Source: Paracoccaceae bacterium
GTDB lineage: Bacteria > Pseudomonadota > Alphaproteobacteria > Rhodobacterales > Rhodobacteraceae
Assembly (NCBI GenBank): GCA_019911965.1
Contig: JAIOJF010000007.1
Location: 1-36,692 of the forward strand
Reading direction: 5' to 3'
Length of the DNA: 36,692 nucleotides
In this document: piece by piece, positions 3,065-30,267 of the stretch
How positions within the stretch are numbered: position 1 is the first letter of the stretch
Layout of the letters: every line of letters begins with the position of its first letter
Made by a program: the position numbers and the translations under genes
The notes under the pieces: model-generated
The model's database searches: none
Told to the model about the DNA's origin: nothing
What the model saw: the letters and a program-made list of their open reading frames with translations, nothing else

Positions 3065-4258
3065 TCACCCCTTCACCGCTTTCACGATCTTGCGGGCGGC
3101 GTCGCCAAGGTCGTCCGCCGCGATAACGTCAAGGCCCGAGCCGTTGATGATCGCCTTGCCCTGCTCGACATTGGTGCCTTCCAGCCGCACCACCAGCGGC
3201 ACTTTCAGGCCAACCTCCTTGACCGCCTCGACCACGCCTTCCGCGATCACGTCGCAACGCATGATGCCGCCGAAAATGTTCACCAGGATGCCTTTGACAT
3301 TGGGGTCCGACGTGATGATCTTGAACGCCTCGGTCACTTTTTCGGTGGTCGCGCCGCCGCCGACATCCAGGAAATTGGCCGGTTCCGAGCCGAACAGCTT
3401 GATGATGTCCATCGTCGCCATCGCCAGCCCGGCCCCGTTCACCATGCAGCCGATCTCGCCATCCAGCGCGATATAGTTCAGGTCGTGCTTGGAGGCGGCC
3501 AGTTCCTTGGGGTCTTCCTCGGTCTCGTCGCGCAGGCCGAGGATTTCCGTCTGGCGATACAGAGCGTTGGAATCAAACCCCATCTTGGCATCGAGGCATT
3601 TCAGATCGCCGCTGTCGGAGACGATCAGCGGGTTGATCTCCAGCATTTCCATGTCACGCTCGACGAACATGCGGTACAATGCACCGACCAGTTTTTCGCA
3701 TTGCCGGATCTGCTTGCCTTCCAGCCCCAGCGCGAAGGCGATGCGCCGGCCGTGGAAGCCGGAAAACCCGGTCGCCGGATCAATCGAGAAGGACAGGATT
3801 TTCTCCGGCGTCGAGGCCGCGACCTCCTCGATATCCATGCCGCCTTCGGTGGAACAGACGAAGGCGATGCGGCTGGTCTGCCGGTCCACCAGCAGCGCCA
3901 GGTACAATTCACGCTCGATGCCCGAGCCTTCCTCGATATAGACGCGGTTCACCTGCTTGCCGGCGGGACCGGTCTGGTGCGTGACCAGCGTGCGGCCCAG
4001 CATCTTTTCGGCCTCGACCGCTGCCTCGCCAACCGATTTGGTCAGCCGCACGCCGCCCTTTTCGCCGGCCTCGCGTTCCTTGAAGCTGCCCTTACCGCGT
4101 CCGCCGGCATGGATCTGCGCCTTCACCACCCAGAGCGGGCCGCCAAGTTCGCCGGCCATTGTCTTGGCTTCGTCGGATTTCAGCACGACCCGGCCGTCGG
4201 AAACCGGAACGCCGTAGTCGCGCAGAAGCCGTTTGGCCTGATATTCGTGGATATTCAT
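3065..4258 (-). CDS. sucC: Succinyl-CoA synthetase beta subunit
   Basis: A full-length (397-residue) beta subunit of succinyl-CoA ligase, with the ATP-grasp nucleotide-binding domain in the N-terminal two thirds and the CoA-ligase Rossmann domain at the C-terminus. Diagnostic stretches include the start [12 protein letters not shown], the lysine/glycine segment [11 protein letters not shown], the metal-binding LEINPLIV and the phosphohistidine-loop segment [12 protein letters not shown]. It forms the TCA-cycle enzyme with SucD. The start at 4258 has AGGAG about 7 nt upstream. Its stop overlaps or abuts a small secreted-protein gene. The gene is first in its transcript and has a 308-bp leader with paired palindromes that may be an operator. 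Confidence 0.97.
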
Positions 4259-4376
4259 TGCTGGCTCCTGTCGGTGCGGTTCTGGATCGGGTCTGGCCCG
4301 GACCCTGTCACATTGACGCGGGCTGAAAAAGGCAAATCACGGAAATGCCCGGAGTTTCCGGCGATTATCGGTATTT

Positions 4377-4407
4377 TGTGATCACTTATTTCATCTGTGT
4401 GATCACA
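4377..4407. promoter_or_regulatory. Paired GTGATCAC palindromes upstream of sucC
   Basis: Two copies of the perfect palindrome GTGATCAC lie at 4378-4385 and 4399-4406, with starts exactly 21 bp apart (two helical turns). Each is extended by T on the 5' side or A on the 3' side, and the outer flanks are AT-rich mirror images (ATTTT and AAATT). The whole array is therefore an inverted repeat with a 13-bp spacer. The same-face spacing fits cooperative binding by a dimeric regulator. The regulator is not identifiable from the window. Confidence 0.5.
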
Positions 4408-4512
4408 AATTTTTCACCTATTGTATCCAAAGGTATACAAATGCTGAAGTTGCGCGCATTTGGCAGAATCATTGGCTGTGCCAACCGGATTTCAATGCCC
4501 CATCACCATACG

Positions 4513-4545
4513 CGAAAAGGGCGCGCCCGGTCAGGCACGCCCTTT
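4513..4545 (-). terminator. Intrinsic terminator after mdh
   Basis: Eight-base stem AAAGGGCG (4516-4523) pairing with CGCCCTTT (4538-4545), with further inner pairs. On the minus strand it is followed by a short T run (AAAA on the plus strand at 4515-4518). It lies 20 nt after the mdh stop codon. Confidence 0.75.
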
Positions 4546-4566
4546 GCAAATCCACGGCAGCGGCGA

Positions 4567-5577
<1,011 letters not shown>

Positions 5578-5683
5578 TCACTCTATGTTCTGCAAGGGAT
5601 AAGACATGCGTGATATTTGCCCCATCGCGGGTTTGTATACCGTTGTGTTCAGACATTCCGGCCATATTGCAGGAGGTTATCGG

Positions 5684-6448
5684 ATGACAACAGGTTTGGA
5701 GCTGAACCTGATGTTCTTCGCCGTAACCGTTCCGGCGGTGCTGTGGGCGGGAATATCCAAGGGTGGCTTCGGGTCCGGCGCGTCATTTGCCGCAACCCCG
5801 CTGCTGGCACTGATTCTCGATCCCGGGCTGGCGGTGGGGCTGATGCTGCCCCTGCTGATGGTGATGGATGTATCGCTGTTGCGGCCCTATTGGGGCAAAT
5901 GGGACGCGCGCAATGCCCGGGTGCTGATCCTCGGCGCGGTGCCGGGAACCGCCATCGGAGCCGCGATCTACGGCGCGGTCGATGCCGATACGTTCCGCGT
6001 GATGATCGGCGTCGTGGCGCTTGGATTTGTGCTGTTTCAGGGCGCGCGCAAGATCGGCCTGCTGCGGGTGAAACAGCACGAGTTCCGCCCACTTGCCGGG
6101 GCGATCTGGGGCATGGTCGGCGGGTTCACCAGCTTCATCAGCCATGCCGGCGGCCCGCCGGTGGCGATGCATCTTCTGTCGCAAAAGCTGGACAAGCTGA
6201 CCTATCAGGCAACATCGGTGATCGTGTTCTGGATCATCAATATCCTGAAATTCATCCCCTATGCCTGGCTTGGCATCTTCACCTGGGAAACCGCGCTGGC
6301 GGATATCTATCTGGTTCCGGTGGCGGTGATCGGAACCTGGGCCGGGGTCTACGCGCACCGGCTGGTGCCGGAGCGCGTCTATTTCGCCATCGCCTATGCG
6401 ATGCTGGTGCTGGCGGGCGGCAAATTGCTGTTCGACGGGTTGACCTGA
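5684..6448 (+). CDS. TSUP (TauE/SafE) family membrane permease
   Basis: A 254-residue integral membrane protein of the TauE/SafE (sulfite exporter / TSUP) family. The two family repeats are visible: GGFGSGASFAATPLL near residue 25 and GGFTSFISHAGGPPVA near residue 150, with about eight hydrophobic segments. Members move small organic or sulfur anions such as sulfite, sulfoacetate or 3-sulfolactate; the substrate here cannot be inferred. The ATG at 5684 was chosen over an upstream in-frame start at 5606 because AGGAGG (5671-5676) lies 7 nt before it and the upstream extension is not membrane-like. It is divergent from mdh across a 154-bp gap and converges on a small secreted-protein gene 19 nt downstream. 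Confidence 0.85.
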   Translation: MTTGLELNLMFFAVTVPAVLWAGISKGGFGSGASFAATPLLALILDPGLAVGLMLPLLMVMDVSLLRPYWGKWDARNARVLILGAVPGTAIGAAIYGAVDADTFRVMIGVVALGFVLFQGARKIGLLRVKQHEFRPLAGAIWGMVGGFTSFISHAGGPPVAMHLLSQKLDKLTYQATSVIVFWIINILKFIPYAWLGIFTWETALADIYLVPVAVIGTWAGVYAHRLVPERVYFAIAYAMLVLAGGKLLFDGLT

Positions 6449-6467
6449 GCCGAACCCTTGTCGGCCA

Positions 6468-6791
6468 TCATGCCTCGCTGCCCTTCAGCCGCGCCACGTC
6501 GCCGGCCTGCGCTTCCCAGCTTTCGCCCGAGGCGACAAGGCAGGTCATGCCCGAGGGCAGCGTCACCACGATGGTCCAGGTGCCGGTATCGGCCGAGGCG
6601 AACACCTCGACCACCGCGTTGTTCTGGCCCAGCCCCATGCTTTGCCGGGTTTCGCCGTAGCGTTCCTGCAACTGCGCCACCACGGTGGCGCGTTCGGCGC
6701 AGGTTGTCTGCTGTTGCGCCTGTGCCTGCTGGGTTGCCCAGATTACCCCGCCAAGTCCGAGCGAGAATGCGAATAGGTAATTCTTCATCAT
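6468..6791 (-). CDS. Small secreted protein, unknown function
   Basis: A 107-residue protein with a signal peptide (MMKNYLFAFSLGLGGVIWAT, then QQAQA as likely cleavage region), a glutamine-rich junction and a short mature domain. The mature part has two cysteines (CAERATVV and MTCLVA) and the run TGTWTIVVTLPSGMTCL. I do not know a function for it. The start at 6791 follows AAGGTG with about 6-nt spacing; two ATGs stand in tandem and either could be used. A longer frame to 6815 would add eight residues before the signal peptide. It converges with the TSUP gene and has a 343-bp gene-free stretch upstream. Confidence 0.65.
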   Translation of the reverse strand: MMKNYLFAFSLGLGGVIWATQQAQAQQQTTCAERATVVAQLQERYGETRQSMGLGQNNAVVEVFASADTGTWTIVVTLPSGMTCLVASGESWEAQAGDVARLKGSEA

Positions 6792-7134
6792 GATCACACC
6801 TTTTGATGCCTGCATGGATGCGTGAGTTCAGCCTGATCGGATTTCTTCCGACACACCGCGCCACCCTGCGGTTTCCTTGAAGCCGGGGCATTTTGCCTGT
6901 CGGGTTCCCGGCGGCCAACCGGGAGGATTTCCAGATCAGGCTCCCGGTGGTGCGATCACATTGTGGCCGAGATGCGAATATGCGGTAAACGCACCGTGCG
7001 CCGAACCGGCCAGGATGCAACGCTTTTGCCGATAATCCTTGGCAATCCATCGCCGCAAACCGGTGCGCGAATGCCTTGAAAACCGATCCTGTCTGTGGTC
7101 CTAAGGCGGCGGATGCCAACAGACGGGGACAATC
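6792..7134. other. Intergenic region between a secreted-protein gene and mcl2
   Basis: A 343-bp divergent promoter region with no credible gene. It holds a GC-rich inverted repeat TCCCGG (6906-6911) with CCGGGA (6919-6924), and an inverted repeat TTGCC (7026-7030) with GGCAA (7041-7045) about 90 nt upstream of mcl2. I could not place confident -35/-10 elements. Confidence 0.4.
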
Positions 7135-8007
7135 ATGCTCGACACCGCCAAACCCTACCGCTCGGTCCTGTACATGCCGGGCTCCAAGGAACGCGCATTG
7201 GAAAAGGCCACGACGCTGGCCACGGATGCGATCATCTTCGATCTGGAAGATGCGGTGGCGGCGGATGAAAAGGCCAATGCACGTGCGCTGGTGGCGGCAT
7301 CGCTGACCAGCCGCGATTATGGGCGGCGCGGGCTGATGGTGCGGATCAACGGTTTCGACACGCCCTGGGCAATGGACGATCTGGCGGCGATCTGCGACGT
7401 GGCGCCCGAGGCGATCCTGCTGCCGAAGGTCAACGCTGCAAGCGATATCGCGCGGCTGGCGGATATCCTCGATCAGCGTCCCGCCTGCGCCGCGACCGGC
7501 ATCTGGGCGATGATGGAAACGCCTATGGGCATCCTGAATGCCGCCGAGATCGCCGCCGCGCCCCGGATGCGCGGCATGGTGCTGGGCACCAATGATCTGG
7601 TGAAGGACCTCGGTGCCCGCCACACCGAAGGCCGGGCCGAGGTGATGACGAGCCTATCGCTCTGCCTGCTGGCGGCGCGGGCTTACGGGCTGGTCTGCGT
7701 CGATGGGGTTTACAACAAGTTTCAGGATACCGAGACGCTTCGTACCCTGTGCGAACAGGCCCGCGACATGGGCTTTGACGGCAAGACCCTGATCCATCCC
7801 GCCCAGATCGACGTGACCAACGAGGTTTTCGCACCGTCAAAGGCCGATATCACCCTGGCCAACCGCCAGATCGCCGCCTTTGACGAGGCCGAGGCCAAGG
7901 GCCTTGGCATCGCCGTGCTGGACGGCAATATCGTGGAAAACCTGCATGTCGCATCCGCGCGGAAACTGCTGGCCAAGGTCGAGGCGATCCGCGCGATTGC
8001 TGGGTAG
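7135..8007 (+). CDS. mcl2: CitE/HpcH-like (3S)-malyl-CoA thioesterase
   Basis: A 290-residue protein of the CitE/HpcH aldolase superfamily. Family signatures are the RSVLYMPGS start (Arg9), the FDLEDAV strand (about 35-41), VRINGFDTPW, LLPKVN, METPMG and the GTNDLVKDL stretch, followed by GKTLIHPAQI. In Rhodobacter sphaeroides the paralog Mcl2 hydrolyses (3S)-malyl-CoA to malate and CoA, completing the ethylmalonyl-CoA pathway; its gene lies close to mdh and sucCD there, as far as I recall, and the same neighbourhood here supports the assignment. A citrate-lyase beta-like or citramalyl-CoA lyase role is the alternative. The ATG follows GGGGA with 5-nt spacing. It converges with a phosphotransferase gene 29 nt downstream. 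Confidence 0.75.
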   Translation: MLDTAKPYRSVLYMPGSKERALEKATTLATDAIIFDLEDAVAADEKANARALVAASLTSRDYGRRGLMVRINGFDTPWAMDDLAAICDVAPEAILLPKVNAASDIARLADILDQRPACAATGIWAMMETPMGILNAAEIAAAPRMRGMVLGTNDLVKDLGARHTEGRAEVMTSLSLCLLAARAYGLVCVDGVYNKFQDTETLRTLCEQARDMGFDGKTLIHPAQIDVTNEVFAPSKADITLANRQIAAFDEAEAKGLGIAVLDGNIVENLHVASARKLLAKVEAIRAIAG

Positions 8008-9197: not shown

Positions 9198-10214
9198 GTG
9201 TCCGAACAATCGCTGACCGCGCCAGCCAAAGGGCAGACCGGACAGAGCGGCCTGCCGCAACTGCATCTGGCGCGCAATCCCGGCATGCCGCTGGATCTGG
9301 ACTGGGTGCGCGGCGTGCAGGCCAATACTTCCGCGATCGAGCGGCGCTGCGCCAGCCTGCCCGGCCGGCGCTCGGTCAAGAAGGACTGGCAGGCGGCCTG
9401 GCTGTTGAAGGCGATTTCCCTGATCGACCTCACCACCCTGGCCGGCGACGATACCGAGGCGCGGGTGCAACGCCTCTGCCGCAAGGCCATGCAGCCGGTC
9501 CGCCCGGACCTTCTGGACGCGCTCGGCATGGGGGATCGCCGCCTGACCACCGGCGCGGTCTGTGTCTATCACGAGATGGTGCCGGAGGCGGTTCGCGCGC
9601 TGGAAGGCTCCGGCGTGCCGGTGGCGGCAGTATCCACCGGCTTTCCCGCCGGGTTGTCGCCATACAAGCTGCGGCTGGCCGAGATCGGCCAATCGGTCGC
9701 CGCCGGGGCGGATGAAATCGACATCGTGATTTCCCGCCGCCATGTGCTGGGCCAGAACTGGCAGGCGCTTTACGACGAGATGCGCGAAATGCGCGCCGCA
9801 TGCGGCCATGCGCATGTGAAGGCGATCCTGGCCACCGGCGAATTGCAGACCTTGCGCAATGTCGCCCGCGCCTCGCTGGTCTGCATGATGGCCGGGGCGG
9901 ATTTCATCAAGACCTCGACCGGCAAGGAAGCCGTCAACGCCACCCTGCCGGTCAGCCTGGTGATGATCCGCGCCATCCGCGACTATGAGGCGCGAACCGG
10001 CTTCAGGATCGGCTACAAACCGGCGGGCGGGATTTCCAAAGCCAAGGATTCGCTGGTATATCTGGCGCTGATCAAGGAAGAGCTGGGCAATCGCTGGCTG
10101 CAGCCCGACCTGTTCCGCTTCGGCGCATCCTCGCTTCTGGGCGATATCGAACGGCAGTTGGAACATCAGGTAACCGGGCGCTATTCGGCGTCCTGGCGAC
10201 ATGCAATGGGGTAG
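9198..10214 (+). CDS. deoC: Deoxyribose-phosphate aldolase
   Basis: A 338-residue DeoC of the longer (type II-like) form. It cleaves 2-deoxy-D-ribose 5-phosphate to acetaldehyde and glyceraldehyde 3-phosphate in deoxynucleoside catabolism. The Schiff-base lysine is Lys238 in FIKTSTG, the proton-relay lysine is Lys274 in YKPAGGI, and DEIDIV (about 172-177) supplies the active-site aspartate. The start is GTG at 9198, preceded by GGGGAG. The gene is followed after 2 nt by a small membrane-protein gene and then by a coupled ALDH16 gene, a sensible partner because it could oxidise the acetaldehyde product. No other deoxynucleoside genes (deoA, deoD, cdd) are in the window. Confidence 0.92.
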   Translation: MSEQSLTAPAKGQTGQSGLPQLHLARNPGMPLDLDWVRGVQANTSAIERRCASLPGRRSVKKDWQAAWLLKAISLIDLTTLAGDDTEARVQRLCRKAMQPVRPDLLDALGMGDRRLTTGAVCVYHEMVPEAVRALEGSGVPVAAVSTGFPAGLSPYKLRLAEIGQSVAAGADEIDIVISRRHVLGQNWQALYDEMREMRAACGHAHVKAILATGELQTLRNVARASLVCMMAGADFIKTSTGKEAVNATLPVSLVMIRAIRDYEARTGFRIGYKPAGGISKAKDSLVYLALIKEELGNRWLQPDLFRFGASSLLGDIERQLEHQVTGRYSASWRHAMG

Positions 10215-10216
10215 AG

Positions 10217-10471
10217 ATGAGCAATCAAGACAACAATTCAAACAACGGCAATCCCGGCCCGAATTTCGCGCTGGAAGCATCGGCAACGCTGATCACCTTC
10301 ATCTTCATCCCGGCACTTTTGATGCTGGTCCTGTGGATCCCCCTGCAACGCCTCGCCGGGACCGAGGCCGCCATCGCCGTCGGTCTGATATTGCAGGCGG
10401 TCTGCCTGTTCGCCTTTCGCGAGAACGTCGCAGGCTTCCTGAAGCGCAAGTTCGGCGGCACGCGGAAATGA
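10217..10471 (+). CDS. Small two-TM membrane protein in the deoC operon
   Basis: An 84-residue protein with a polar Asn-rich N-terminus (residues 1-17), two hydrophobic segments (about 22-45 and 48-68) and a short basic C-terminus (LKRKFGGTRK). I recognise no family. It starts 2 nt after the deoC stop and its own stop overlaps the ALDH16 start as ATGA, so it is embedded in a tightly coupled three-gene unit. It could localise or assist the flanking enzymes at the membrane, but that is speculation. Confidence 0.7.
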   Translation: MSNQDNNSNNGNPGPNFALEASATLITFIFIPALLMLVLWIPLQRLAGTEAAIAVGLILQAVCLFAFRENVAGFLKRKFGGTRK

Positions 10472-12822
10472 CCATCCCCGGATTGTTCGATTCGATGGAA
10501 TGGGGCCCCGCCCCGGAAAGCACCGCCGAGGCAATGGCCTGGCTGGACACGCATGAACGCACCTTCGGGCTGTTCATCGGCGGTGAGTTCCGCGCCGCCC
10601 AATCGGGCGGTGGTTTTGACACGCGCAATCCGGCCAATGGCCAGGTGCTGGCCCGCATCGCCGAGGCCGGTGCCGCGGATATCGACGTTGCCGTCGCCGC
10701 CGCCCGCAAGGCCCAGCCGAAATGGCAGGCGCTCGGCGGGCATGGCCGCGCCCGCCATCTCTATGCACTGGCGCGATTGGTGCAGAAGCATTCCCGCCTG
10801 CTGGCGGTGGTCGAGACACTGGATAACGGCAAGCCGATCCGCGAAAGCCGCGATATCGACGTGCCCCTGGTGGCGCGGCATTTCTACTATCACGCCGGTG
10901 CGGCGCAACTGATGGATGCCCAGATGCCGGGCCGCGAGGCTCTGGGCGTCTGCGGTCAGGTGATCCCGTGGAACTTCCCGCTGCTGATGCTGGCCTGGAA
11001 GATCGCCCCGGCACTGGCGATGGGCAATACCGTTGTGCTGAAACCGGCGGAATATACCTCGCTGTCGGCGCTTTTGTTCGCCGAAATCTGCATCGAGGCT
11101 GGCCTGCCGGCGGGTGTTGTCAATATCGTGACCGGCGACGGGCGCACCGGCGAATTGATCAGCCTGCATCCCGGCATCGGCAAGATCGCCTTCACCGGTT
11201 CGACCGATGTGGGCCGCAGGATACGCCAGGCCACCGCCGGCAGCGGCAAGGCGCTGACGCTGGAACTGGGCGGAAAATCGCCCTATATCGTGTTCGATGA
11301 CGCCGATCTCGACAGCGCCGTCGAAGGCCTTGTCGATGCGATCTGGTTCAATCAGGGGCAGGTCTGCTGCGCCGGTTCGCGCCTGTTGGTGCAGGAAGGC
11401 GTTGCCGAGGCGTTCACCGCCAAGCTGATCGCCCGGATGAACAAGCTGCGCGTCGGCGATCCGATGGACAAGGCGATCGACATGGGCGCGATCGTCGATC
11501 CTGTGCAACTGGACGCGATCACCCGCATGGTCGCCTCCGCCCCTGAAGGCGCACAGGTCCACCACGCCACCTGTGCGATCCCGAACGAGGGCTGTTTCTA
11601 CCCGCCGACCCTGATCACCGGGCTGGCCCCGGCGGATCGCCTGATGCAGGAGGAAATCTTCGGCCCGGTGCTGGTGGCAACCACCTTCCGCACGCCCTCC
11701 GAAGCCGTTGCCTTGGCCAATGACAGCCGCTACGGGCTGGCCGCCACGATCTGGAGCGAGAACATCAACCTCGCCCTCGATATCGCACCGAAACTGGTCT
11801 CGGGCGTGGTCTGGATCAACGCCACCAACTTGTTCGACGCCGCTGCCGGATTCGGCGGACGCCGCGAAAGCGGTTTCGGGCGCGAAGGCGGCAGGGAAGG
11901 GCTTTACGCCTACACGAAACCGGCAGGCAATCGCAAACCTCTGAAGCGCGTGCTGCCGTATGACGGCATTGCCCTGGGCGCAAGCGGGCTGGACCGCACC
12001 GCGAAGAACTATGTCGGCGGCAAACAGGCCCGCCCCGATGGCGGCTATTCAACTCCGGTCTTCGGGCCAAAGGGCGCGTTTCTGGGTCATGTCGGCACCG
12101 GCAACCGCAAGGATATCCGCAACGCGGTCGAAGCCGCCCGCGCCGCCACCGGCTGGGCCAGGACCACCGGGCATCTGCGTGCGCAGATCCTCTATTACAT
12201 CGCCGAGAACCTGTCGGCCCGCGGCGACGAATTCGCCGCCCGGCTGAAAGCCATGCAGGGCGGCGGCGACAAGGCGGCCCGTGCGGAAGTGGACACCGCG
12301 ATTGCCCGCCTGTTTTCCGCTGCCGCCTGGGCCGACAAATACGACGGCGCGGTACATGATGTGCCGATCCGTGGCGTTGCGCTGGCGATGAATGAACCGG
12401 TCGGGGTGATCGGCATGGTCTGCCCGGACGAAGCCCCCTTGCTGGGGCTGATCTCGCTGATCGCACCGGCGATTGCGATGGGCAATACCTGCGTTGCGGT
12501 GCCGTCGGCGGCCTTCCCGCTGGCGGCAAGCGATTTCTACCAGGTGCTGGACACCTCCGATCTGCCCGGCGGTGTGGTCAATATCGTAACCGGCGCGCAT
12601 GGCGATCTGGCACCGGTGCTGGCGGCGCATGACGATGTCGATGCGCTGTGGTATTTCGGCTCGGACGACCTGTCGGGGGCAATCGAACGCGCCTCTGCCG
12701 GCAATCTGAAACGAACGCTGGTCAATGACGGCTACGCGACCGACTGGTTCAAGGCCGACACCCAGCATTTCCTGCGCCACGCAACCGAGGTCAAGAATAT
12801 CTGGATTCCCTACGGCGAATAG
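10468..12822 (+). CDS. ALDH16-type double-domain aldehyde dehydrogenase
   Basis: A 784-residue aldehyde dehydrogenase with a complete N-terminal ALDH unit (about 1-490) and a second, non-catalytic ALDH-like unit (about 512-784). In the first unit the general base is Glu266 (LELGGK) and the nucleophile is Cys300 in NQGQVCC, with PWNFP and the GSTDVG NAD-binding loop. The second unit keeps the fold signatures (GNTCVAVPS, GGVVNIVTG) but has no nucleophile motif. This is the architecture of the ALDH16 family, whose bacterial members are active whereas mammalian ALDH16A1 has lost its cysteine. An upstream in-frame start at 10201 was rejected because it overlaps deoC and the small membrane protein; the ATG at 10468 gives the coupled ATGA overlap. 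The likely role, from context, is oxidation of acetaldehyde made by DeoC. Confidence 0.88.
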   Translation: MTIPGLFDSMEWGPAPESTAEAMAWLDTHERTFGLFIGGEFRAAQSGGGFDTRNPANGQVLARIAEAGAADIDVAVAAARKAQPKWQALGGHGRARHLYALARLVQKHSRLLAVVETLDNGKPIRESRDIDVPLVARHFYYHAGAAQLMDAQMPGREALGVCGQVIPWNFPLLMLAWKIAPALAMGNTVVLKPAEYTSLSALLFAEICIEAGLPAGVVNIVTGDGRTGELISLHPGIGKIAFTGSTDVGRRIRQATAGSGKALTLELGGKSPYIVFDDADLDSAVEGLVDAIWFNQGQVCCAGSRLLVQEGVAEAFTAKLIARMNKLRVGDPMDKAIDMGAIVDPVQLDAITRMVASAPEGAQVHHATCAIPNEGCFYPPTLITGLAPADRLMQEEIFGPVLVATTFRTPSEAVALANDSRYGLAATIWSENINLALDIAPKLVSGVVWINATNLFDAAAGFGGRRESGFGREGGREGLYAYTKPAGNRKPLKRVLPYDGIALGASGLDRTAKNYVGGKQARPDGGYSTPVFGPKGAFLGHVGTGNRKDIRNAVEAARAATGWARTTGHLRAQILYYIAENLSARGDEFAARLKAMQGGGDKAARAEVDTAIARLFSAAAWADKYDGAVHDVPIRGVALAMNEPVGVIGMVCPDEAPLLGLISLIAPAIAMGNTCVAVPSAAFPLAASDFYQVLDTSDLPGGVVNIVTGAHGDLAPVLAAHDDVDALWYFGSDDLSGAIERASAGNLKRTLVNDGYATDWFKADTQHFLRHATEVKNIWIPYGE

Positions 12823-22995: not shown

Positions 22996-23649
22996 TCACA
23001 GGCCCCGCATCTGCAATTCCTTGCCGTCATGGATATGCAGGATCATCTTTTCCGCCGCCGCCCAGCCATCGCCGGTTTCGATCGCGTCGATCAGCGACAT
23101 GTGATCGCCCAGCGATTTCGACAGATCGACGAACTGGATCGACGCGAACAGCGTGAAGGATGAGCCACGGTTCCAGATATTGTCGAAGAACTCCAGCAGG
23201 AAGCGGTTGCGGGTGGCCTCGACAATGGCGCGGTGGATCGACCTGTTGGCATCGAAATAGGCCTGCACGGTGTTTTCCGTCATGTCCTCGGCCCGCGTGA
23301 TCCGGGCACGCAGCGCCGCGCAGGTGGCCTTGTCGCCGGCTTCGGCCAGCATCCGCGCCGCCGATCCCTCGATGGCTGACCGCGCGCCATACATTTCCGC
23401 AATCTCCGCCTCGTCCAGCTTGCGGATGCGAAACCCGCCGCGCCCGGCCAGTTCCAGAATACCCTCCTGCTCCATTCGGAACAGCGCTTCGCGGATCGGC
23501 GTGCGGCTGATTTCAAACTCGTCCGCCAGCTTTTCCTGAACGATTCGGTCCTCGGTCGAGATCGAGCCATCGCGAATCGCCTGCATGATCTGGTCATAGA
23601 CCTGATCGGCCAGTCGGATACGCGGTTGCGACAGGGACTTGAACGCCAT
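22996..23649 (-). CDS. GntR-family (FCD subfamily) transcriptional regulator
   Basis: A 217-residue regulator with an N-terminal winged helix (about 12-75, including VQEKLADEFEISRTPIREAL) and a C-terminal all-helical FCD ligand domain (about 85-205). The FCD metal/ligand residues are visible as an Asp-x3-His pair in FDANRSIH, a His in GDHMSL and a His in LHIHDG, so it probably binds a small carboxylate or amino acid effector, possibly through a metal. The ATG at 23649 has GGGGAAG about 6 nt upstream; a longer frame to 23751 was rejected. It is divergent from the amidotransferase gene across 159 bp containing a perfect palindrome and a second imperfect copy, so it very probably regulates that cluster and itself. 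Confidence 0.88.
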   Translation of the reverse strand: MAFKSLSQPRIRLADQVYDQIMQAIRDGSISTEDRIVQEKLADEFEISRTPIREALFRMEQEGILELAGRGGFRIRKLDEAEIAEMYGARSAIEGSAARMLAEAGDKATCAALRARITRAEDMTENTVQAYFDANRSIHRAIVEATRNRFLLEFFDNIWNRGSSFTLFASIQFVDLSKSLGDHMSLIDAIETGDGWAAAEKMILHIHDGKELQMRGL

Positions 23650-23769: not shown

Positions 23770-23785
23770 ATACTGTATACAGTAT
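23770..23785. promoter_or_regulatory. Perfect 16-bp palindrome, likely GntR operator
   Basis: ATACTGTATACAGTAT is a perfect inverted repeat centred between 23777 and 23778, ending 23 nt before the start codon of the amidotransferase gene. Its size and GTATAC core fit sites bound by FCD-type GntR dimers, and the regulator gene is directly divergent. At this position it would overlap the transcription start and most simply act as a repressor site. Confidence 0.7.
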
Positions 23786-23808: not shown

Positions 23809-24756
23809 ATGTGTGGAATCGCCGGGAGAATACTGAATGCGCCGGGCAAGGTCGGGGCCGACCTGGTCGAGCTGATGGATGCGCAGGAACACAGGGGCGC
23901 TGATTCGACCGGCTTCGCGGTCTGGGGCGTGCCGCGCGATGACGGTTACATCGTCCGCGCGATTGGGTTCGACCGTACCCGCATGGCCGCCGATCTCGAA
24001 GATTTTCGCGCCATCCTGAAACAGCACGGCTCGGACTTCATCGAGGATCCGACCTGGGACAATGATCGCAGCAAGCATTACTCGGTGCGCATGATCATCC
24101 GCGATCCCGCCGACATGGCCGAATGGGTCAGGGCGGCGGACGAGATCTGCACCCGCCTGGAAATGCAGTCGGTCGGCCGGTCGCTGGAGATCATCAAGGA
24201 TACCGGCGGTGCCTATGCGGTGGCCGACAAGCACGGCGTGCGCGACATGATCGGCACGCACGGGCTGGGCCATGCCCGCCTGGCCACCGAAAGCGACGTG
24301 CGCCCGAATGCCAGCCACCCGTTCTGGGCCCGTCCCTTCCCGGATGTGGCGATCGTGCATAACGGCCAGATCACCGATTACTATACCTGGCGCAACCGGC
24401 TGACCCGGCAGGGCTATCGCTTCCTGACCTATAACGACAGCGAACTGATCGCGGTCTGGGTTTCGGACCGCATGAAACAGGGCCTCAGCATGGAACAGGC
24501 GCTGACCCGCTCGATCGACGAGATCGACGGTGTCTTCACCTTCATGATCGGCACCCCGGAAACCATCGGTTTCGCCAAGGACCGCTTCGCGATGAAGCCG
24601 CTGGTCGTGGTCAACGAATTGGGCAGGATCGCCGCCGCCACCGAGGAACAGGCGGTGCGCCGCGTCGTGCTCGACGAAGATTGCGACATCATCAACTACG
24701 ATGGCCCGTGCCAGTTCGGCACCTGGGGCGTCGGCAACCGGAGGGCCGCGGCATGA
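23809..24756 (+). CDS. glxB: GlxB/MgsA-like class II glutamine amidotransferase
   Basis: A 315-residue protein of the class II (Ntn-hydrolase) glutamine amidotransferase family, with the nucleophile Cys2 exposed after removal of the initiator Met (MCGIAGRILN). Further motifs are EHRGADSTGFAVWG, the GHARLATES segment and VHNGQITDY. It corresponds to the first subunit of the split glutamate-synthase-like enzymes GlxBCD and MgsABC; in MgsABC (N-methylglutamate synthase) this subunit works with the next two gene products. The ATG at 23809 is fixed by the catalytic Cys and by AAGGGG 7 nt upstream. It is first in a cluster running to 30267 and overlaps the next gene by ATGA. Confidence 0.9.
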   Translation: MCGIAGRILNAPGKVGADLVELMDAQEHRGADSTGFAVWGVPRDDGYIVRAIGFDRTRMAADLEDFRAILKQHGSDFIEDPTWDNDRSKHYSVRMIIRDPADMAEWVRAADEICTRLEMQSVGRSLEIIKDTGGAYAVADKHGVRDMIGTHGLGHARLATESDVRPNASHPFWARPFPDVAIVHNGQITDYYTWRNRLTRQGYRFLTYNDSELIAVWVSDRMKQGLSMEQALTRSIDEIDGVFTFMIGTPETIGFAKDRFAMKPLVVVNELGRIAAATEEQAVRRVVLDEDCDIINYDGPCQFGTWGVGNRRAAA

Positions 24757-25445
24757 GCGAGACCATCATCACCGTCGCCGACCGCCCGATCCGCGAAGTG
24801 CACCAGGAAATCCAGGCCGCGGCGCAGGCGGGTGGTTCGATCCTGATCCGGGATGCGCGCTCGCGCCATAACCTCGGCGTCGGGCTGCCGCCGGGATGCT
24901 CGGTCCGTTTTGAAGGCTCGGTCGGCTATTATTGCGGCGGGCTGAATACCGGCGCGCGGATCGAGATCGAACGCAACGCCGGCTGGGGCTGCGGCGAGGC
25001 GATGAGCGACGGCCATGTCACCATCGGCGGCTATGCCGGCATGTCGGTCGGCGCGGCAATGCTGGGCGGCACCATCCATGTCAAGGGCGATTGCGGCCCG
25101 CGCGTCGGCGTCGCCATGAAGGGCGGCCATATCGTCGTGGAAGGCAAGATCGGCTATCAGTCGGGCTTCATGGCGCATGGCGGCAAGATCATCGCGCTGG
25201 GCGGTGCGGGCGGAAGCTGTGCCGATGCGCTGTGGGAGGGCGAGGTCTGGGTAACCGGCGATATCCAGGACCTGGGCGTCGATGCCGTGGTGACCGAGCC
25301 GACCGCCGAACAGGTGGCCGAAGTGGATGCCATCCTCGATCCGCTTGGCCTGAAGGACACATCGCGCGACTGGCGTCGGATCGTCGCTGGCAAGAGACTT
25401 TGGTATTTTGAAAGCAGGGACGCAAAAGCATGGCTGATGATATAA
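24753..25445 (+). CDS. glxC: GlxC/MgsB-like GXGXG-motif subunit
   Basis: A 230-residue protein made mostly of a right-handed beta-helix of glycine-rich repeats (residues about 45-190; for example VGYYCGGLNTGARIEIE, GGYAGMSVGAAMLGG and GGHIVVEGKIGYQSG). It is equivalent to the C-terminal GXGXG domain of the glutamate synthase large subunit, present here as a separate chain. It is thought to be structural, joining the amidotransferase and synthase subunits. Its start overlaps the previous stop as ATGA and its end overlaps the next gene by 16 nt, so stoichiometric coupled translation is likely. Confidence 0.9.
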   Translation: MSETIITVADRPIREVHQEIQAAAQAGGSILIRDARSRHNLGVGLPPGCSVRFEGSVGYYCGGLNTGARIEIERNAGWGCGEAMSDGHVTIGGYAGMSVGAAMLGGTIHVKGDCGPRVGVAMKGGHIVVEGKIGYQSGFMAHGGKIIALGGAGGSCADALWEGEVWVTGDIQDLGVDAVVTEPTAEQVAEVDAILDPLGLKDTSRDWRRIVAGKRLWYFESRDAKAWLMI

Positions 25446-26869
25446 AACCGACCTACGAATATCCGTTCGAGGAAGCCAGCGAAGAAATGATCGCCTTTGG
25501 CGACGGTGCCATCGAAGGCCGTCCCGCCGGTGCACCGGCCTCGTATGACAGGGGCGGTTCGACCCGCTGGACGCCCGAGGCAATCTCGGAAGTTCACGCG
25601 CTGGCGCAGCTTGGCCGCTACCAGGTGCGGGGCTGGAACAGCTTCAACCACCGCCTGCCGTCCTGGGACGACCTGACATTCGTTCCCGCCACCATGACCC
25701 GCCTGCCGCTGGAAGGCTACCGTGAGAAATGCGAAACCAAGACGGTGCTGGGCGGCGGTCGCGGGCTGGTTGAAAAACCGATCGAGATCGACATTCCGAT
25801 CTACATCGCCTCGATGTCGTTCGGGGCCTTGTCGGCCAGCGCCAAGGAGGCGCTGGGCCACGGTGCCTCCAAGGTCGGCACCCTCACCTGCACCGGCGAA
25901 GGCGGAATGCTGGAAGAGGAACGCGCCGCCTCGCGCACGCTGGTCTACCAGATGTCACCGGCACGTTACGGGCTTGATCTGGACCATCTGCGCCGCGCCA
26001 ACGGGCTGGAACTGGTGGTTGGCCAGGGGGCCAAGCCCGGCACCGGCGGCCTGCTGCTGGGCATGAAAGTGTCCGAGCGGATTTCAAAGATGCGTACCCT
26101 GCCGGTGGGCGTCGATCAACGCTCGACCATCCGTCACCCCGACTGGCTGGGGGCCGACGATCTGGCCGTCAAGATCGAGGAATTGCGCATCGCCACCAAT
26201 TACCAGGTGCCGATCTTCATCAAGATGGGGGCCACGCGCCCGCGCTATGACGTTGCCGTCGCGGCCAAGGCCGGGGCCGATGTGGTGGTGGTGGACGGGG
26301 CCGAGGGCGGCACCGGGGCCAGCCCGGAAATGCTGCTGAACCATACCGGTATCCCCTGCATGTCGGCGATCCCGGCAGCGCGCGAAGCGCTGGATGAATG
26401 CGGCATGTCGGGCAAGGTATCGCTGGTGGTCGCCGGTGGCATCCGCTCGGGCACCGATGTAGCCAAGGCGCTGGCACTTGGGGCCGATGCGGTGATGATC
26501 GGCAATGCCGCGATGATCGCGCTGGGATGCAATTCGCCGCGCTACGCCGACAGTTACGCGCAGCTTGGCACCAGCCCGGGTGCATGTCATCATTGCCATA
26601 CCGGCCTCTGCCCGGTCGGCATTGCCACGCAGGATGCGGAACTGGAAAAGCGCATGAATATCGCGGCCGGGGCGGAACGCGTGGCACGCTATCTGACCGC
26701 GATGACGATGGAGATCACGGCGCTGGCCAAGGCCTGCGGCAAATCCTCGGTCCACAACCTGGAAACCGAGGATCTGCGGGCGCTGTCGTTCGAGGCATCC
26801 GCCTTTACCGGCGTCAAGATGGCCGGGATCGACCGCCCGTTCGACTGGGCGACCGAGCGCAAAGGATAA
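25430..26869 (+). CDS. glxD: GlxD/MgsC-like FMN-binding glutamate synthase family protein
   Basis: A 479-residue homolog of the central and FMN domains of the glutamate synthase large subunit. Family features are the SFGALSASAKEALGHGA stretch, GEGGML, KPGTGGLL, IKMGATRPR, VVVDGAEGGTGASP and VVAGGIRSGTDVAKALALGAD, plus a 3Fe-4S cluster motif with Cys386, Cys389 and Cys394 (CHHCHTGLC). In N-methylglutamate synthase this subunit joins methylamine to glutamate; in other contexts the family is uncharacterised. With the preceding two subunits it forms a complete three-subunit enzyme. No glutamine synthetase-like partner (gmaS or glnT) accompanies it here, which argues against the standard methylamine pathway. 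Confidence 0.9.
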   Translation: MADDIKPTYEYPFEEASEEMIAFGDGAIEGRPAGAPASYDRGGSTRWTPEAISEVHALAQLGRYQVRGWNSFNHRLPSWDDLTFVPATMTRLPLEGYREKCETKTVLGGGRGLVEKPIEIDIPIYIASMSFGALSASAKEALGHGASKVGTLTCTGEGGMLEEERAASRTLVYQMSPARYGLDLDHLRRANGLELVVGQGAKPGTGGLLLGMKVSERISKMRTLPVGVDQRSTIRHPDWLGADDLAVKIEELRIATNYQVPIFIKMGATRPRYDVAVAAKAGADVVVVDGAEGGTGASPEMLLNHTGIPCMSAIPAAREALDECGMSGKVSLVVAGGIRSGTDVAKALALGADAVMIGNAAMIALGCNSPRYADSYAQLGTSPGACHHCHTGLCPVGIATQDAELEKRMNIAAGAERVARYLTAMTMEITALAKACGKSSVHNLETEDLRALSFEASAFTGVKMAGIDRPFDWATERKG

Positions 26870-26945
26870 GACCGGCGAACGAGGCCGGCCCGAAGACCAC
26901 CCTGGCGCAACCGCGGCGGGGGCAACCAACGAAGCGGAGGAACAG

Positions 26946-28355
26946 ATGTTTCAGAAAATGCTTATCGGCGGCAAGCTGGTCGGAAAAGACAGCGCCAAGA
27001 CCTCGATCAAGATCATCAACCCGGCCAACGAAAAGGTCTTTGCCCGCGTGCCCAAAGGCACCGTCAAGGATATCGACAAGGCGGTGAAGGCCGCCAAGAA
27101 GGCGTTTCCGGCATGGGCCGACACGCCGCTGGCCAAACGCCAGGCTATCGTCAGCAAGATCGCCGACGTGCTCGCCGCCAATGCCGAGATGCTGGCCCGC
27201 ATGATGACCAAGGAACAGGGCAAGCCGCTGGCGGAATCGATGGGCGAAATGGGCTGGACCGAAGGCTATCTGCGCCACTACGCGACGCTGGAAGCCAAGG
27301 GCCGCATGGTCCAGGACGACGACGCGCTCCAGATCGAGATGCGCCGCGTACCGCTGGGCGTGGTCGCCGGTATCTGCCCGTGGAACTTCCCGGTTCTGGT
27401 GCCGTTCTGGAAGATCGGACCGGCGCTGATCACCGGCAATACGATCGTCATCAAGCCGTCGCCGACAACGCCGGTGACGCTGATGAAAATCTTTGAATTG
27501 TGCAATGACTTCGTGCCCGCAGGTGTGATCAACATCGTGCCGGACGAAAACGATCTGGGCAAGGCCCTGACCAGCCACCCCGATGTCGCCAAGGTCAGCT
27601 TCACCGGCTCGACCGAGACCGGCAAGAAGATCATGGCGTCGTCCGCCGGCACCGTCAAACGCCTGACGCTGGAACTGGGCGGCAACGACCCGGCGATCGT
27701 CCTGCCGGATGTCGATGTCAAGAAAACCGCCGAGCAGATTTTCGGCGGTGCCTTCATGAATGCCGGGCAGGTCTGCATGGCGGTCAAGCGGGTCTATGCC
27801 CACAAGAACATCTACGACGAATTGTGCAACGAACTGGCCAAGCTGGCCGAAGCGGTGGTTGTCGATGACGGCCTGCGCCAGGGCGCAACGATGGGGCCGA
27901 TCCAGAACAAGGCGCAGTACAAGAAGGTCAAGGCGCTGATCAAAAGCTCGAAAAAGGACGGCAAGGTCCTTTCGGGCGGCGTGGTCAAGGGCCGCAAGGG
28001 CTATTTCGTGAAGCCGGTGATCGTGCGCGACGTCAAGGATGGCAACGATATCGTCGACAAGGAACAATTCGGCCCGATCCTGCCGGTGGTCAAGTTCTCC
28101 TCCACCAAGGACGTCACCAGGCAGGTCAACAAGTCCGCCTACGGGCTGGGGGCCTCGGTCTGGTCCAAGGATGCCGCCAAGGCAACCAGGATCGCCGGCA
28201 AGATCGAAAGCGGCACGGTCTGGGTGAACCATTGCGTCCATATCGGCCCGCATATCCCGATGGCCGGGTTCAAGTCGTCCGGCCTCGGGGTCGAGCAATC
28301 CACCGAAGGGTTCGAGGAATATACCCAGATCCAGGTTCTCAGCGTCGCCAAGTAA
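26946..28355 (+). CDS. NAD(P)-dependent aldehyde dehydrogenase
   Basis: A 469-residue aldehyde dehydrogenase with the general base Glu243 (TLELGGNDP) and nucleophile Cys277 (NAGQVCMAVKR), PWNFP at 145-149 and the GSTETG cofactor loop. The residues after the cysteine (MAVKR) differ from the common GSR pattern. The substrate is not identifiable; from context it would be the aldehyde released by the FAD oxidase encoded next. The ATG follows GGAGG with 5-nt spacing. It lies 76 bp after the GlxD-like gene, with a small GC hairpin (26872-26888) between, and is probably cotranscribed. Confidence 0.87.
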   Translation: MFQKMLIGGKLVGKDSAKTSIKIINPANEKVFARVPKGTVKDIDKAVKAAKKAFPAWADTPLAKRQAIVSKIADVLAANAEMLARMMTKEQGKPLAESMGEMGWTEGYLRHYATLEAKGRMVQDDDALQIEMRRVPLGVVAGICPWNFPVLVPFWKIGPALITGNTIVIKPSPTTPVTLMKIFELCNDFVPAGVINIVPDENDLGKALTSHPDVAKVSFTGSTETGKKIMASSAGTVKRLTLELGGNDPAIVLPDVDVKKTAEQIFGGAFMNAGQVCMAVKRVYAHKNIYDELCNELAKLAEAVVVDDGLRQGATMGPIQNKAQYKKVKALIKSSKKDGKVLSGGVVKGRKGYFVKPVIVRDVKDGNDIVDKEQFGPILPVVKFSSTKDVTRQVNKSAYGLGASVWSKDAAKATRIAGKIESGTVWVNHCVHIGPHIPMAGFKSSGLGVEQSTEGFEEYTQIQVLSVAK

Positions 28356-28375
28356 GGCGCTGCCACGCACGGCTT

Positions 28376-28399
28376 GGGGCGTTCCGGCGTGAACGCCCC
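28376..28399 (+). repeat. Strong hairpin between ALDH and FAD oxidase genes
   Basis: GGGGCGTTC (28376-28384) and GAACGCCCC (28391-28399) form a perfect 9-bp stem with a 6-base loop. It lies 20 nt after the aldehyde dehydrogenase stop and 27 nt before the next start. There is no T run, so it looks like an mRNA-processing or stability element rather than a terminator. Confidence 0.65.
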
Positions 28400-28426
28400 G
28401 GCGCTGCCGACAGTTCAGGTGAGACA

Positions 28427-29719
28427 ATGCTGAAGACCGATCCCTTCTGGTGGGAAGATTTCGCCGCCTTCGATGGCGGGCCTGCGGAACAACCCGAGGC
28501 CTGCGACGTGGTCGTGGTCGGGGCCGGGCTGACGGGATGTTCGGCGGCGCTGACGCTGGCCAGGGCGGGCCAGAAGGTTCTGGTGCTGGACGCCCAACGC
28601 CCGGGATACGGGGCCTCCACCCGCAATGGCGGCATGATCGGCGGCGGATACCGCCTGTCACAGGCCGAGATGATCGCGCTTTACGGGCCCGAGACCGCCT
28701 CGCGCCTGCTGATGGAATCGCATGTGGAGTCGCTGGCCTTCGCGGTGTCGCGCATCAAGGACGAGGGCATCGACTGCGATTATCACCAATATGGCCGCTT
28801 TCGCGGGCAATGGAACGATGCGGAATACGACGCCACCGCCCGCAGCCTTGACGATCTGCGCAAACTTGTACCGATCAATGTGGAGATGGTGCCGAAAAGC
28901 CGCCAGCGCAGCGAGATCGGCTCGGACCTCTATAGCGGCGGCATGTTGCTGCTGGATCATGGCGGGGTGCATCCGGGCAAATACCTGAACGGCATGCTCG
29001 CCGCCGCCACGCGCGCCGGGTCGCAAGTGATGGGGGATACCCCGGCGCTGGCGGTTGACCGCGCGGGATCGGATTTCCGGGTCACCACACCCCGCGGCAC
29101 GATCCGCGCCGGTGCCGTGCTGATGGCCACCAACGGCTATACCCAGCCGCGCTTTGCCTGGCTGAAGCGGCGCATCATCCCGGTATCGAGCTATCTGATC
29201 GCGACCGAGGAATTGCCCGACGGCATGGCCGATGAATTGTTTCCGACCGGGCGCATGTGCGTCGAAACCCGCTTCCGGCATTGCTATTTCCGCCTGTCGC
29301 CGGATTGCAAGCGCGTGGTTCTGGGCGGGCGCGCCGCGATGGGCAAGATCTCCACCACCAGATCGGCGATAATCCTGCGCAGCCTTCTGGTCGAGATTTT
29401 CCCGCAGCTCAAAAACATCGCCCTGACCCATAGCTGGACCGGCCATACCGGCTTCACCTTCTCCTTCGTGCCCAATATCGGCCAGTCGGACGGTATCTGG
29501 CACGCCCTGGGATATTCCGGCAGCGGCAATGCGCTTGCGCCCTATTTGGGCCACAAGGCGGCGTTACAGATGCTGGGCGATGCGGGTGGCGAAACAGGGT
29601 TCTCCAAAACGACGCTGGAAACCCGCTTCTGGTATCGCAACCGCCCGTGGTACCTGCCCTTCGCGCATGCGCTTTACCGCATGAAGGACATGCAGGACGA
29701 CCGCAGACGAGGCAAATAG
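28427..29719 (+). CDS. PuuB/DAO-type FAD-dependent amine oxidoreductase
   Basis: A 430-residue flavoprotein of the DAO family with the FAD-binding motif GAGLTG (32-37) in DVVVVGAGLTGCSAA, an acidic strand end VLVLDA, the covalent/active-site loop region YGASTRNGGMIGGG, and the C-terminal LGYSGSGNALAPYLG flavin-binding stretch. The best-known relatives are gamma-glutamylputrescine oxidase (PuuB) and other N-substituted amino acid oxidases; these convert a C-N bond to an imine that hydrolyses to an aldehyde. The substrate is not known. The start at 28427 has AGGTGA upstream; a longer frame to 28232 overlaps the aldehyde dehydrogenase and was rejected. Its neighbours suggest an N-alkylglutamate as substrate. 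Confidence 0.85.
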   Translation: MLKTDPFWWEDFAAFDGGPAEQPEACDVVVVGAGLTGCSAALTLARAGQKVLVLDAQRPGYGASTRNGGMIGGGYRLSQAEMIALYGPETASRLLMESHVESLAFAVSRIKDEGIDCDYHQYGRFRGQWNDAEYDATARSLDDLRKLVPINVEMVPKSRQRSEIGSDLYSGGMLLLDHGGVHPGKYLNGMLAAATRAGSQVMGDTPALAVDRAGSDFRVTTPRGTIRAGAVLMATNGYTQPRFAWLKRRIIPVSSYLIATEELPDGMADELFPTGRMCVETRFRHCYFRLSPDCKRVVLGGRAAMGKISTTRSAIILRSLLVEIFPQLKNIALTHSWTGHTGFTFSFVPNIGQSDGIWHALGYSGSGNALAPYLGHKAALQMLGDAGGETGFSKTTLETRFWYRNRPWYLPFAHALYRMKDMQDDRRRGK

Positions 29720-29856
29720 GACCCAGGCCCCCACCGCGCCCGGGATTGACGCAAGACGAAAGACATGAACGGATTACAGGAAGAAAACGGCAGGATCGGC
29801 GGCAAAAGGATTGACCGGGCCGCGATCCCAACCGCAGGGAGGTAACCAGCAAGACC

Positions 29857-30267
29857 ATGACGATCAAGACAATTTCAGGCGGCGGACGGTTCGAGAAAGC
29901 CGGTTCCTACAGCCGCGTCAAACGGGTCGGACCGTTTGTCTATGTTGCCGGGCTGACCTCGATGCAGTCCAACGGCCAGGTTTACGCGCCCTACGATATC
30001 TACGAACAATCGGTGTTCATCTTCGACAAGATCGAAAGCTATCTGGAAGAGGCCGGCGCCAAGATGCGCCATGTTGTCTGCACCCGCGCCTATCTGACCG
30101 ACATGCGCGATGCCGGTGGCTTCATCCGCCGCCACGGCGAGGTGTTTGCCGGGATCGAACCGGTTCTGACCGGCGTTCAGGCCGGGCTGACCACGCCGGG
30201 CATGATGGTCGAGGTCGAGATCGAGGCGATCATCCATTCCGCCAAGGGCAAAATCTCGCTGGATTGA
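29857..30267 (+). CDS. Rid-family (YjgF/YER057c/UK114) protein, probably not RidA
   Basis: A 136-residue single-domain Rid protein (start MTIKTISGGG, core YVAGLTSM, end VEVEIEAIIHSA). RidA hydrolyses reactive enamine/imine intermediates using a conserved arginine near the C-terminus (motif P-x-R before the IEIEAI strand). Here the corresponding segment reads EPVLTGVQAGL, so the arginine seems to be replaced by Leu; this puts the protein in one of the divergent Rid subfamilies often found in amine and amino-acid catabolic operons. Its place downstream of an amine oxidase fits a role with an imine product. It lies 137 bp after the oxidase gene and converges with a small membrane-protein gene. 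Confidence 0.8.
   Translation: MTIKTISGGGRFEKAGSYSRVKRVGPFVYVAGLTSMQSNGQVYAPYDIYEQSVFIFDKIESYLEEAGAKMRHVVCTRAYLTDMRDAGGFIRRHGEVFAGIEPVLTGVQAGLTTPGMMVEVEIEAIIHSAKGKISLD

Follow-up and report, generated by a model that had tools for sequence, protein, structure and literature searches.

A GlxBCD gene cluster in a Paracoccaceae bacterium and its relatives suggests an N-substituted-glutamate route for primary amines

The DNA analyzed here (the window) covers positions 1 to 36,692 of contig JAIOJF010000007.1 from a Paracoccaceae bacterium and corresponds to contig C43 in a draft genome of 3.67 Mb (G000; 60 contigs, 99.36% complete). It carries a cluster in which three GlxBCD/MgsABC-like subunits, an aldehyde dehydrogenase (ALDH), a FAD oxidoreductase, and a Rid protein are encoded behind a divergent GntR gene. 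We propose, with a probability of roughly 0.55, that this cluster is a catabolic shunt in which a primary amine larger than methylamine, R-CH2-NH2, would be carried on an N-substituted glutamate. The genes, the clade formed by GlxD, the co-occurrence of partner genes in relatives, and a shared operator were established directly.

In the proposed pathway, GlxBCD would form N-(R-CH2)-glutamate. The amine would probably be delivered as a γ-glutamyl amide, in the style of glutamine synthetase/glutamate synthase (GS/GOGAT), because GlxB retains its amidotransferase residues. In relatives, this amide would be made by a GS-like ligase, referred to here as GS4, and the window strain would either bypass the step by using free amine or use another GS-like gene. 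The DAO-type flavin oxidase would turn the secondary amine into an imine, Rid would assist hydrolysis to glutamate and R-CHO, and ALDH would convert R-CHO to R-COOH. Some relatives would activate R-COOH by means of a linked acyl-CoA ligase; others would bypass R-COOH through an acylating ALDH inside a bacterial microcompartment (BMC). The unit would be controlled by GntR through the palindrome ATACTGTATACAGTAT. All these reactions, as well as the N-substituted glutamate intermediate, the pairing of regulator and operator, and the substrate class, are inferred. The occurrence of two nonorthologous oxidases and an opine dehydrogenase together with an MgsABC-family synthase points to an N-substituted glutamate, and a compartment with an acylating ALDH, or an ALDH with an acyl-CoA ligase, indicates an aldehyde on its way to acyl-CoA, which would make methylamine unlikely and a primary amine of two or more carbons likely. 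The chemistry suggested in an earlier note on this DNA, in which an N-alkylglutamate forms from amine and glutamate and is oxidized by a flavin enzyme to give an aldehyde, remains the best reading. An aldehyde intermediate is favored by the microcompartment genes of the relatives together with their MTOX-like oxidase and opine dehydrogenase, two families whose known members act on N-substituted amino acids.

All seven genes are open reading frames of the expected families, as judged from the listing of reading frames and from Pfam and NCBIfam profiles; the six-gene cluster behind a divergent GntR gene that the earlier note described is thus real. The regulator (22996–23649, minus strand) matches the Pfam models GntR (60.2 bits) and FCD (85.8 bits). 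On the plus strand follow a glxB/mgsA-like class-II glutamine amidotransferase (GATase) subunit with an N-terminal cysteine (23809–24756; GATase_6, 57.9 bits; GATase_7, 55.6 bits), a glxC/mgsB-like GXGXG subunit (24753–25445; PF01493, 50.5 bits), a glxD/mgsC-like FMN glutamate-synthase subunit (Glu_synthase; 25430–26869; PF01645, 321.9 bits), an NAD(P)-type ALDH that is nonacylating by family (26946–28355; Aldedh, 510.9 bits; best NCBIfam match PRK13473, 432.4 bits versus a cut-off of 615), a single-chain DAO-family FAD oxidoreductase, the putative N-alkylglutamate oxidase (28427–29719; DAO, 200.4 bits), and a Rid/L-PSP protein, the putative helper of imine hydrolysis (29857–30267; PF01042, 70.8 bits). 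The frames of glxB and glxC overlap by 4 bases and those of glxC and glxD by 16. The amidotransferase residues retained in GlxB are MCGI, HARLAT, VHNG, and NDSE, and GlxD has the GltB-type cysteine motif CHHCHTGLCPVG, whose cysteines presumably bind a 3Fe-4S cluster, as known from glutamate synthase. Ratios of nonsynonymous to synonymous substitution (dN/dS) for six window genes against the nearest relative, locus L014, are 0.05 to 0.15 (dS 1.04–1.48, near saturation). These values indicate purifying selection on the unit relative to L014, the pairwise value covering both lineages and not the window lineage separately.

Family profiles and plasmid control loci confirm that GlxBCD is homologous to N-methylglutamate synthase, as the earlier note had it. 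The scan of genome contigs kept the best 80 of 578 GlxD relatives, the total number of relatives therefore being larger. In 44 of the 80 loci, GlxD is at least 78% identical to that of the window, and these loci plus the window make up the clade of 45; the next loci follow at 65% and then at 60% or less. The hosts are Rhodobacteraceae, Hoeflea and other Hyphomicrobiales, Sneathiellales, and several gammaproteobacterial groups. A glxC gene is present in 44 of the 45 loci and glxB in 42, with the missing cases near contig ends, and by these counts the glxBCD association exceeds chance. Homologues of GntR (34/45) and Rid (25/45) are also frequent, as are class-I GATases (21/45) and an amino-acid/amide-type ATP-binding cassette (ABC) binding protein (18/45). 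The GlxD match in one same-genus genome (G003) has the same contig coordinates as L014, which comes from a Rhodobacteraceae metagenome-assembled genome.

A GlxD tree of 37 rows places the 16 representatives of the clade on one side of a branch (96/99) and separates them from the gmaS-linked rows (three rows, gmaS having been checked in L062 only), which are likewise confined to one side of a branch. All 16 clade rows have the GltB-type cysteine motif, which does not separate the clade from the gmaS group, since L062 GlxD retains it too. GlxD of the two plasmid controls (L171 and L172; glxBCD-glnT-soxBDAG; Aminobacter and Thioclava) lacks the motif shown by the other aligned rows, and GlxD is 52 to 57% identical to glnT/sox-linked plasmid homologues. 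The protein also differs from GltB: the 2-oxoglutarate-site stretch KPGEGGQ reads KPGTGGL in 16 of 16 clade rows, and there are three chains instead of a single long one.

The earlier note held that gmaS and mgdABCD are absent from the cluster and that the oxidase and ALDH could replace both. The absence was borne out. No gmaS was found in the window genome, where none of eight matches to TIGR03105 exceeded the cut-off (best 235.7 versus 469.6 bits); these matches represent seven GS-like genes, two of them being pieces of one frame. Nor was mgdABCD found linked to the glx synthase: the window genome has three SoxD loci, all apart from glx, and the 17 kb around each contain no match to a glx or GS query. 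The genome has one GlxD-like match at E ≤ 1e-100 and also encodes a full GltB. The replacement holds in part, the oxidase and ALDH standing in the position of mgdABCD. The place of gmaS is filled by GS4 in the genomes of 39 of the 45 loci, and a replacement of gmaS by the oxidase and ALDH is not supported.

In L014, the gene order is GntR, glxBCD, GS4, acyl-CoA ligase, ALDH, FAD oxidase, and Rid. By tblastn, GS4 lies within the locus in 26 of the 45 cases, and 13 of 17 genomes without GS4 at the locus encode it elsewhere at 70 to 89% identity. The last two loci without GS4 are in the window genome and L052, the latter from the same metagenome-assembled genome as the GS4-lacking L051. GS4-bearing genomes include those of L014 and L017, which are of the same genus as the window strain and have an intact cluster. 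No GS4 ortholog was found in the window genome, where none of the seven GS-like genes exceeds 33% identity to GS4. This absence is probably due to loss; as glxD and ALDH are 76 bases apart in the window with no gene remnant between them, it is not an assembly gap at that site. By model, GS4 is not gmaS (230.6 and 238.1 bits versus a cut-off of 469.6), and on NF045547, a test for γ-glutamylputrescine synthetase, the GS4 proteins of relatives score 194 to 198 bits versus a cut-off of 650. Among the matches listed, the nearest specifically named relative is IpuC at 35 to 36%, apart from a 67% identical Mesorhizobium gene. In a sample of 147 relatives, nine genomes have clade GlxD (one a fragment) and 12 have GS4; seven of the nine hold GS4, as compared with five of the 138 others (Fisher p 1e-7, the genomes not being independent). 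One of these five, the same-genus genome G004 (77% complete; L176:9044–12492), has a decaying cluster, with glxB in two frames and GS4 shortened; clade glxD was not seen in that stretch. In G038, G072, and G030, GS4 has no recognized partner within the stretches taken.

Even without GS4, the route could still operate in the window strain. In Pseudomonas putida, mgsABC of M. extorquens without gmaS makes N-methylglutamate, 2.5-fold less than with gmaS (PMC6237917), and by analogy free amine may suffice here, or another of the seven GS-like genes could replace GS4. The redox cofactors of the synthase are given as unknown in the text of the same report.

The clade loci show two kinds of ending. 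The window-type oxidase occurs in six (the window, L014, L015, L017, L033, and L053), of which five have ALDH, five have Rid, and three have an acyl-CoA ligase (PRK12583-type in L014; MbcS-like, below cut-off, in L015). Five of the six loci with the window-type oxidase have GS4. Two further window-type loci were found among relatives, namely L181, with GS4, and L185, where the set adjoins an acyl-CoA ligase and where GS4 cannot be judged because the contig ends inside glxD. An MTOX-like oxidase is found in 22 of the 45 loci, and none has both oxidase types; ALDH occurs in five and an acylating ALDH in 20, again never together. These mutually exclusive endings point to replacement of the same steps by nonorthologous enzymes. 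As to the identity of the amine, a C3–C5 acid would be at most a guess from the acyl-CoA ligases and is not claimed. In many aligned rows, the MTOX-like oxidases of the compartment form (L054, L055, L029, and others) have a common C-terminal tail that finishes with SPKESPSGR or a close variant.

Shell genes for BMC-P, BMC-H, and BMC-T are present in 21, 21, and 20 of the 45 clade loci, respectively, and all three proteins exceed the Pfam cut-off (PF03319 and PF00936). A conserved compartment operon was seen at L054:11416–20484 and in L156–L162, L164, and L166, not in the window genome; it comprises an MTOX-like gene divergent from GS4, along with BMC-P, BMC-H, an opine dehydrogenase, an acylating ALDH, a CcmP-like BMC-T, a lactate/malate-dehydrogenase-like gene, Rid, and an ABC binding protein. 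The PDB matches of the transporter are weak (best E 1e-7), and no ligand was inferred from them. The ALDH of the operon is nearest to acylating EutE-type models, yet below cut-off (503.8 of 620.1 bits). Acylating ALDH occurs in two of the 147 relatives, both among the nine with clade GlxD. Where GS4 is unlinked to the glx locus (13 genomes), an MTOX-like gene is present in all 13 stretches, adjoining GS4 in 12 and lying 5 kb away in L158; a shell gene is present in 11 and the set from BMC-P to Rid in nine, the remaining contigs ending too early.

The compartment operon, with its lactate/malate-dehydrogenase-like and Rid genes, also holds an opine-dehydrogenase-family gene. All 12 members of this family match Pfam Octopine_DH at E ≤ 0.1 (24.1 and 26.7 bits for two members; cut-off 30). 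The best PDB match of the family profile is 1BG6, N-(1-D-carboxylethyl)-L-norvaline dehydrogenase (E 3.8e-21), and a structural model (predicted local distance difference test [pLDDT] score of 85.0) also ranks 1BG6 first by fold (E 6.4e-24), with octopine dehydrogenases next. Known opine dehydrogenases oxidize N-substituted amino acids, and an N-alkylglutamate would require the same chemistry. At the N terminus, F5 and F8 are invariant in 12 of 12 members, and the model has a helix at residues 3 to 13 followed by a loose stretch; this region looks like an encapsulation peptide, residues 1 to 22 being modeled at low confidence.

The perfect 16-bp palindrome ATACTGTATACAGTAT, the putative GntR operator, lies at 23770–23785 in the window, 23 bp before the glxB start codon, and is found 15 to 50 bases ahead of most glxB genes. 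When up to three mismatches and a distance of up to 250 bases upstream are allowed, the 58 loci counted show a site ahead of glxB in 37 of 42 cases, of GS4 in 33 of 39, of the MTOX-like gene in 32 of 35, and of the gene for the ABC binding protein in 15 of 26. The counts for GS4 and the MTOX-like gene are not independent because both genes mostly share one divergent spacer. The palindrome also precedes GntR (30/34), in the spacer shared with glxB, and 7 sites lie elsewhere; counts for ALDH (1/5), FAD oxidase (1/6), and Rid (1/34) are low, and the remaining genes have none. One mononucleotide shuffle of each locus yielded no sites. The operator is present at 12 of the 13 unlinked GS4 loci, and the sole perfect copy in the window genome is the one before glxB, the two other matches having three mismatches. 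Judged by position, GntR is probably the protein that binds ATACTGTATACAGTAT.

Taken together, the main form of the pathway may feed a new kind of metabolosome, a tentative proposal to which we give slightly worse than even odds. GS4 and GlxBCD would build the N-alkylglutamate. An opine dehydrogenase enclosed in the shell, acting alongside the MTOX-like oxidase or in its place, would free the aldehyde within the compartment and beside the acylating ALDH, all under one GntR operator; the window would represent a compartment-free and ligase-free branch. If the proposed pathway is real, the GS/GOGAT-like trick of the N-methylglutamate pathway is not limited to C1 amines, and Rhodobacteraceae, Hoeflea, and several gammaproteobacterial lineages would use an N-alkylglutamate to carry a larger amine. 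The pathway would also provide a substrate route for a type of compartment that has no evident source of aldehyde, and one operator plus a small gene set would make both pathway and compartment testable.

Several observations weigh against the N-substituted-glutamate shunt. Four of the 17 genomes without GS4 at the locus have none elsewhere (best 31–34%), and the window genome is itself among the exceptions. GS4 occurs without clade GlxD in five of the 12 GS4-bearing relatives and on a Mesorhizobium loti plasmid (L169:10059–17461), where the 67% identical homologue has as neighbors an APC permease, a cytochrome P450 with an iron-sulfur partner, and a γ-glutamyl-γ-aminobutyrate hydrolase-family protein, no glx gene being annotated in the stretch. 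Two of the 13 contigs with unlinked GS4 stop before any compartment gene. The window genome has no ortholog of the acyl-CoA ligase (best match 36%), and no transporter is linked to the window cluster. Given the lack of GS4, ligase ortholog, and linked transporter, the window unit could be a remnant or serve another use. A structural model of the window oxidase (6-row alignment, pLDDT 55.2) was too poor and was used for no claim. Finally, this oxidase is 45% identical to a FAD gene on contig C9 of the same genome (L124:7666–12799), which belongs to a Puu-like set of two GS-like genes with a class-I GATase between them and does not need GlxBCD; an identity of 45% leaves the substrate of the window oxidase unfixed.

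That resemblance also supports an unlikely alternative, a Puu-like γ-glutamyl route. Here an amine or diamine would be capped by a GS-like enzyme and oxidized directly in its capped form by the FAD protein, ALDH would follow, and GlxBCD would only recycle nitrogen or the γ-glutamyl amide. The window oxidase also shares 53% identity with a plasmid gene of Agrobacterium that has polyamine-type ABC transporters and an ALDH as neighbors, class-I GATases occur in 21 of the 45 clade loci, and the Mesorhizobium GS4 adjoins its C26-type hydrolase with no glx gene present. However, of all elements GlxBCD varies least across the clade, and it has its operator in common with GS4 and the MTOX-like oxidase, the window cluster lacks a hydrolase, and the MTOX-like and opine-dehydrogenase families would suit a secondary amine better. 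We regard as improbable that an imported opine-like N-substituted amino acid is split by the oxidase or opine dehydrogenase, with GS4 and GlxBCD handling the released amine. The opine-dehydrogenase-family enzyme of the compartment operon and the binding protein in 18 of the 45 loci would fit import, but GS4 and GlxBCD are homologous to enzymes that make, not use, such compounds, and the window cluster has neither transporter nor opine dehydrogenase.

A variant N-methylglutamate pathway, with methylamine as substrate and formaldehyde as end product, seems more improbable still. All three Glx subunits are homologous to MgsABC, and the 52 to 57% identity of GlxD to the glnT/sox-linked homologues is in line with such a role, but GlxD forms a separate clade, mgdABCD is lacking, GS4 reaches just 230 to 238 bits on the gmaS model (cut-off 469.6), and the acyl-CoA ligase and EutE-like acylating ALDH of relatives would, judged by family, be senseless for formaldehyde. 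The methylamine pathway proper was rejected as best reading, given the separate GlxD clade and no gmaS above cut-off. Least probable, to our minds, is a nitrogen-assimilating glutamate-synthase variant co-regulated by chance with an unrelated set for amine or imino-acid oxidation; the cysteine motif kept in GlxD would make a GOGAT-like electron supply possible, but the genome already has a full GltB, and KPGTGGL replaces KPGEGGQ throughout the clade rows.

Compared with the N-methylglutamate pathway (gmaS, mgsABC, and mgdABCD), the proposed shunt has the same three-subunit module in the same order, a GS-like ligase partner in the window's relatives, and a proposed flavin oxidation to glutamate and aldehyde. 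It differs in its GlxD clade, in the use of GS4 for gmaS by relatives (the window genome has neither), in the single-chain oxidase that the window has for the four-subunit dehydrogenase, in the addition of ALDH and Rid, and in the GntR gene of the window versus an XRE gene in both plasmid controls. The Puu γ-glutamylputrescine pathway (PuuABCD) shares a DAO-type oxidase, an ALDH, and, in relatives, a GS-like enzyme; unlike it, the window has GlxBCD, and no GS gene or γ-glutamyl hydrolase was found in its cluster. In the isopropylamine pathway, a GS-like ligase likewise caps the amine, but that ligase, the γ-glutamylisopropylamide synthetase IpuC, is a distant relative of GS4 only, and GlxBCD is not known to occur in that pathway.

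Catalogued metabolosomes (PMC8217296, PMC4207490) resemble the compartment loci of relatives in BMC-P, BMC-H, a CcmP-like BMC-T, a pfam00171 acylating ALDH, and a lactate/malate-dehydrogenase-like gene, unlike the window, which has no compartment gene; no shell gene was found in the window genome (no PF00936 match). These catalogues describe types without a signature enzyme, and their main text makes no mention of GS4, an MTOX-like oxidase, an opine dehydrogenase, and co-regulated GlxBCD as an aldehyde source (PMC8217296, PMC4207490). The main text of the 2021 catalogue (PMC8217296) nowhere uses the terms glutamine synthetase, glutamate synthase, amidotransferase, or opine. Full-text literature searches, with the supplementary files of the catalogue outside their scope, found no description of the pathway or compartment; the compartment may already be catalogued among the 68 types as one of unknown function, the supplementary locus diagrams lying outside the comparison.

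Two neighboring regions are recorded for completeness. In L014, the stretch 3238–7530, which ends just before the GntR gene, encodes an amidase, a 423-residue protein without an NCBIfam match, and a malonyl-CoA synthase above cut-off. In the window, an 873-residue frame at 10201–12822 has two stretches matching ALDH models and is apparently a fused or duplicated ALDH.

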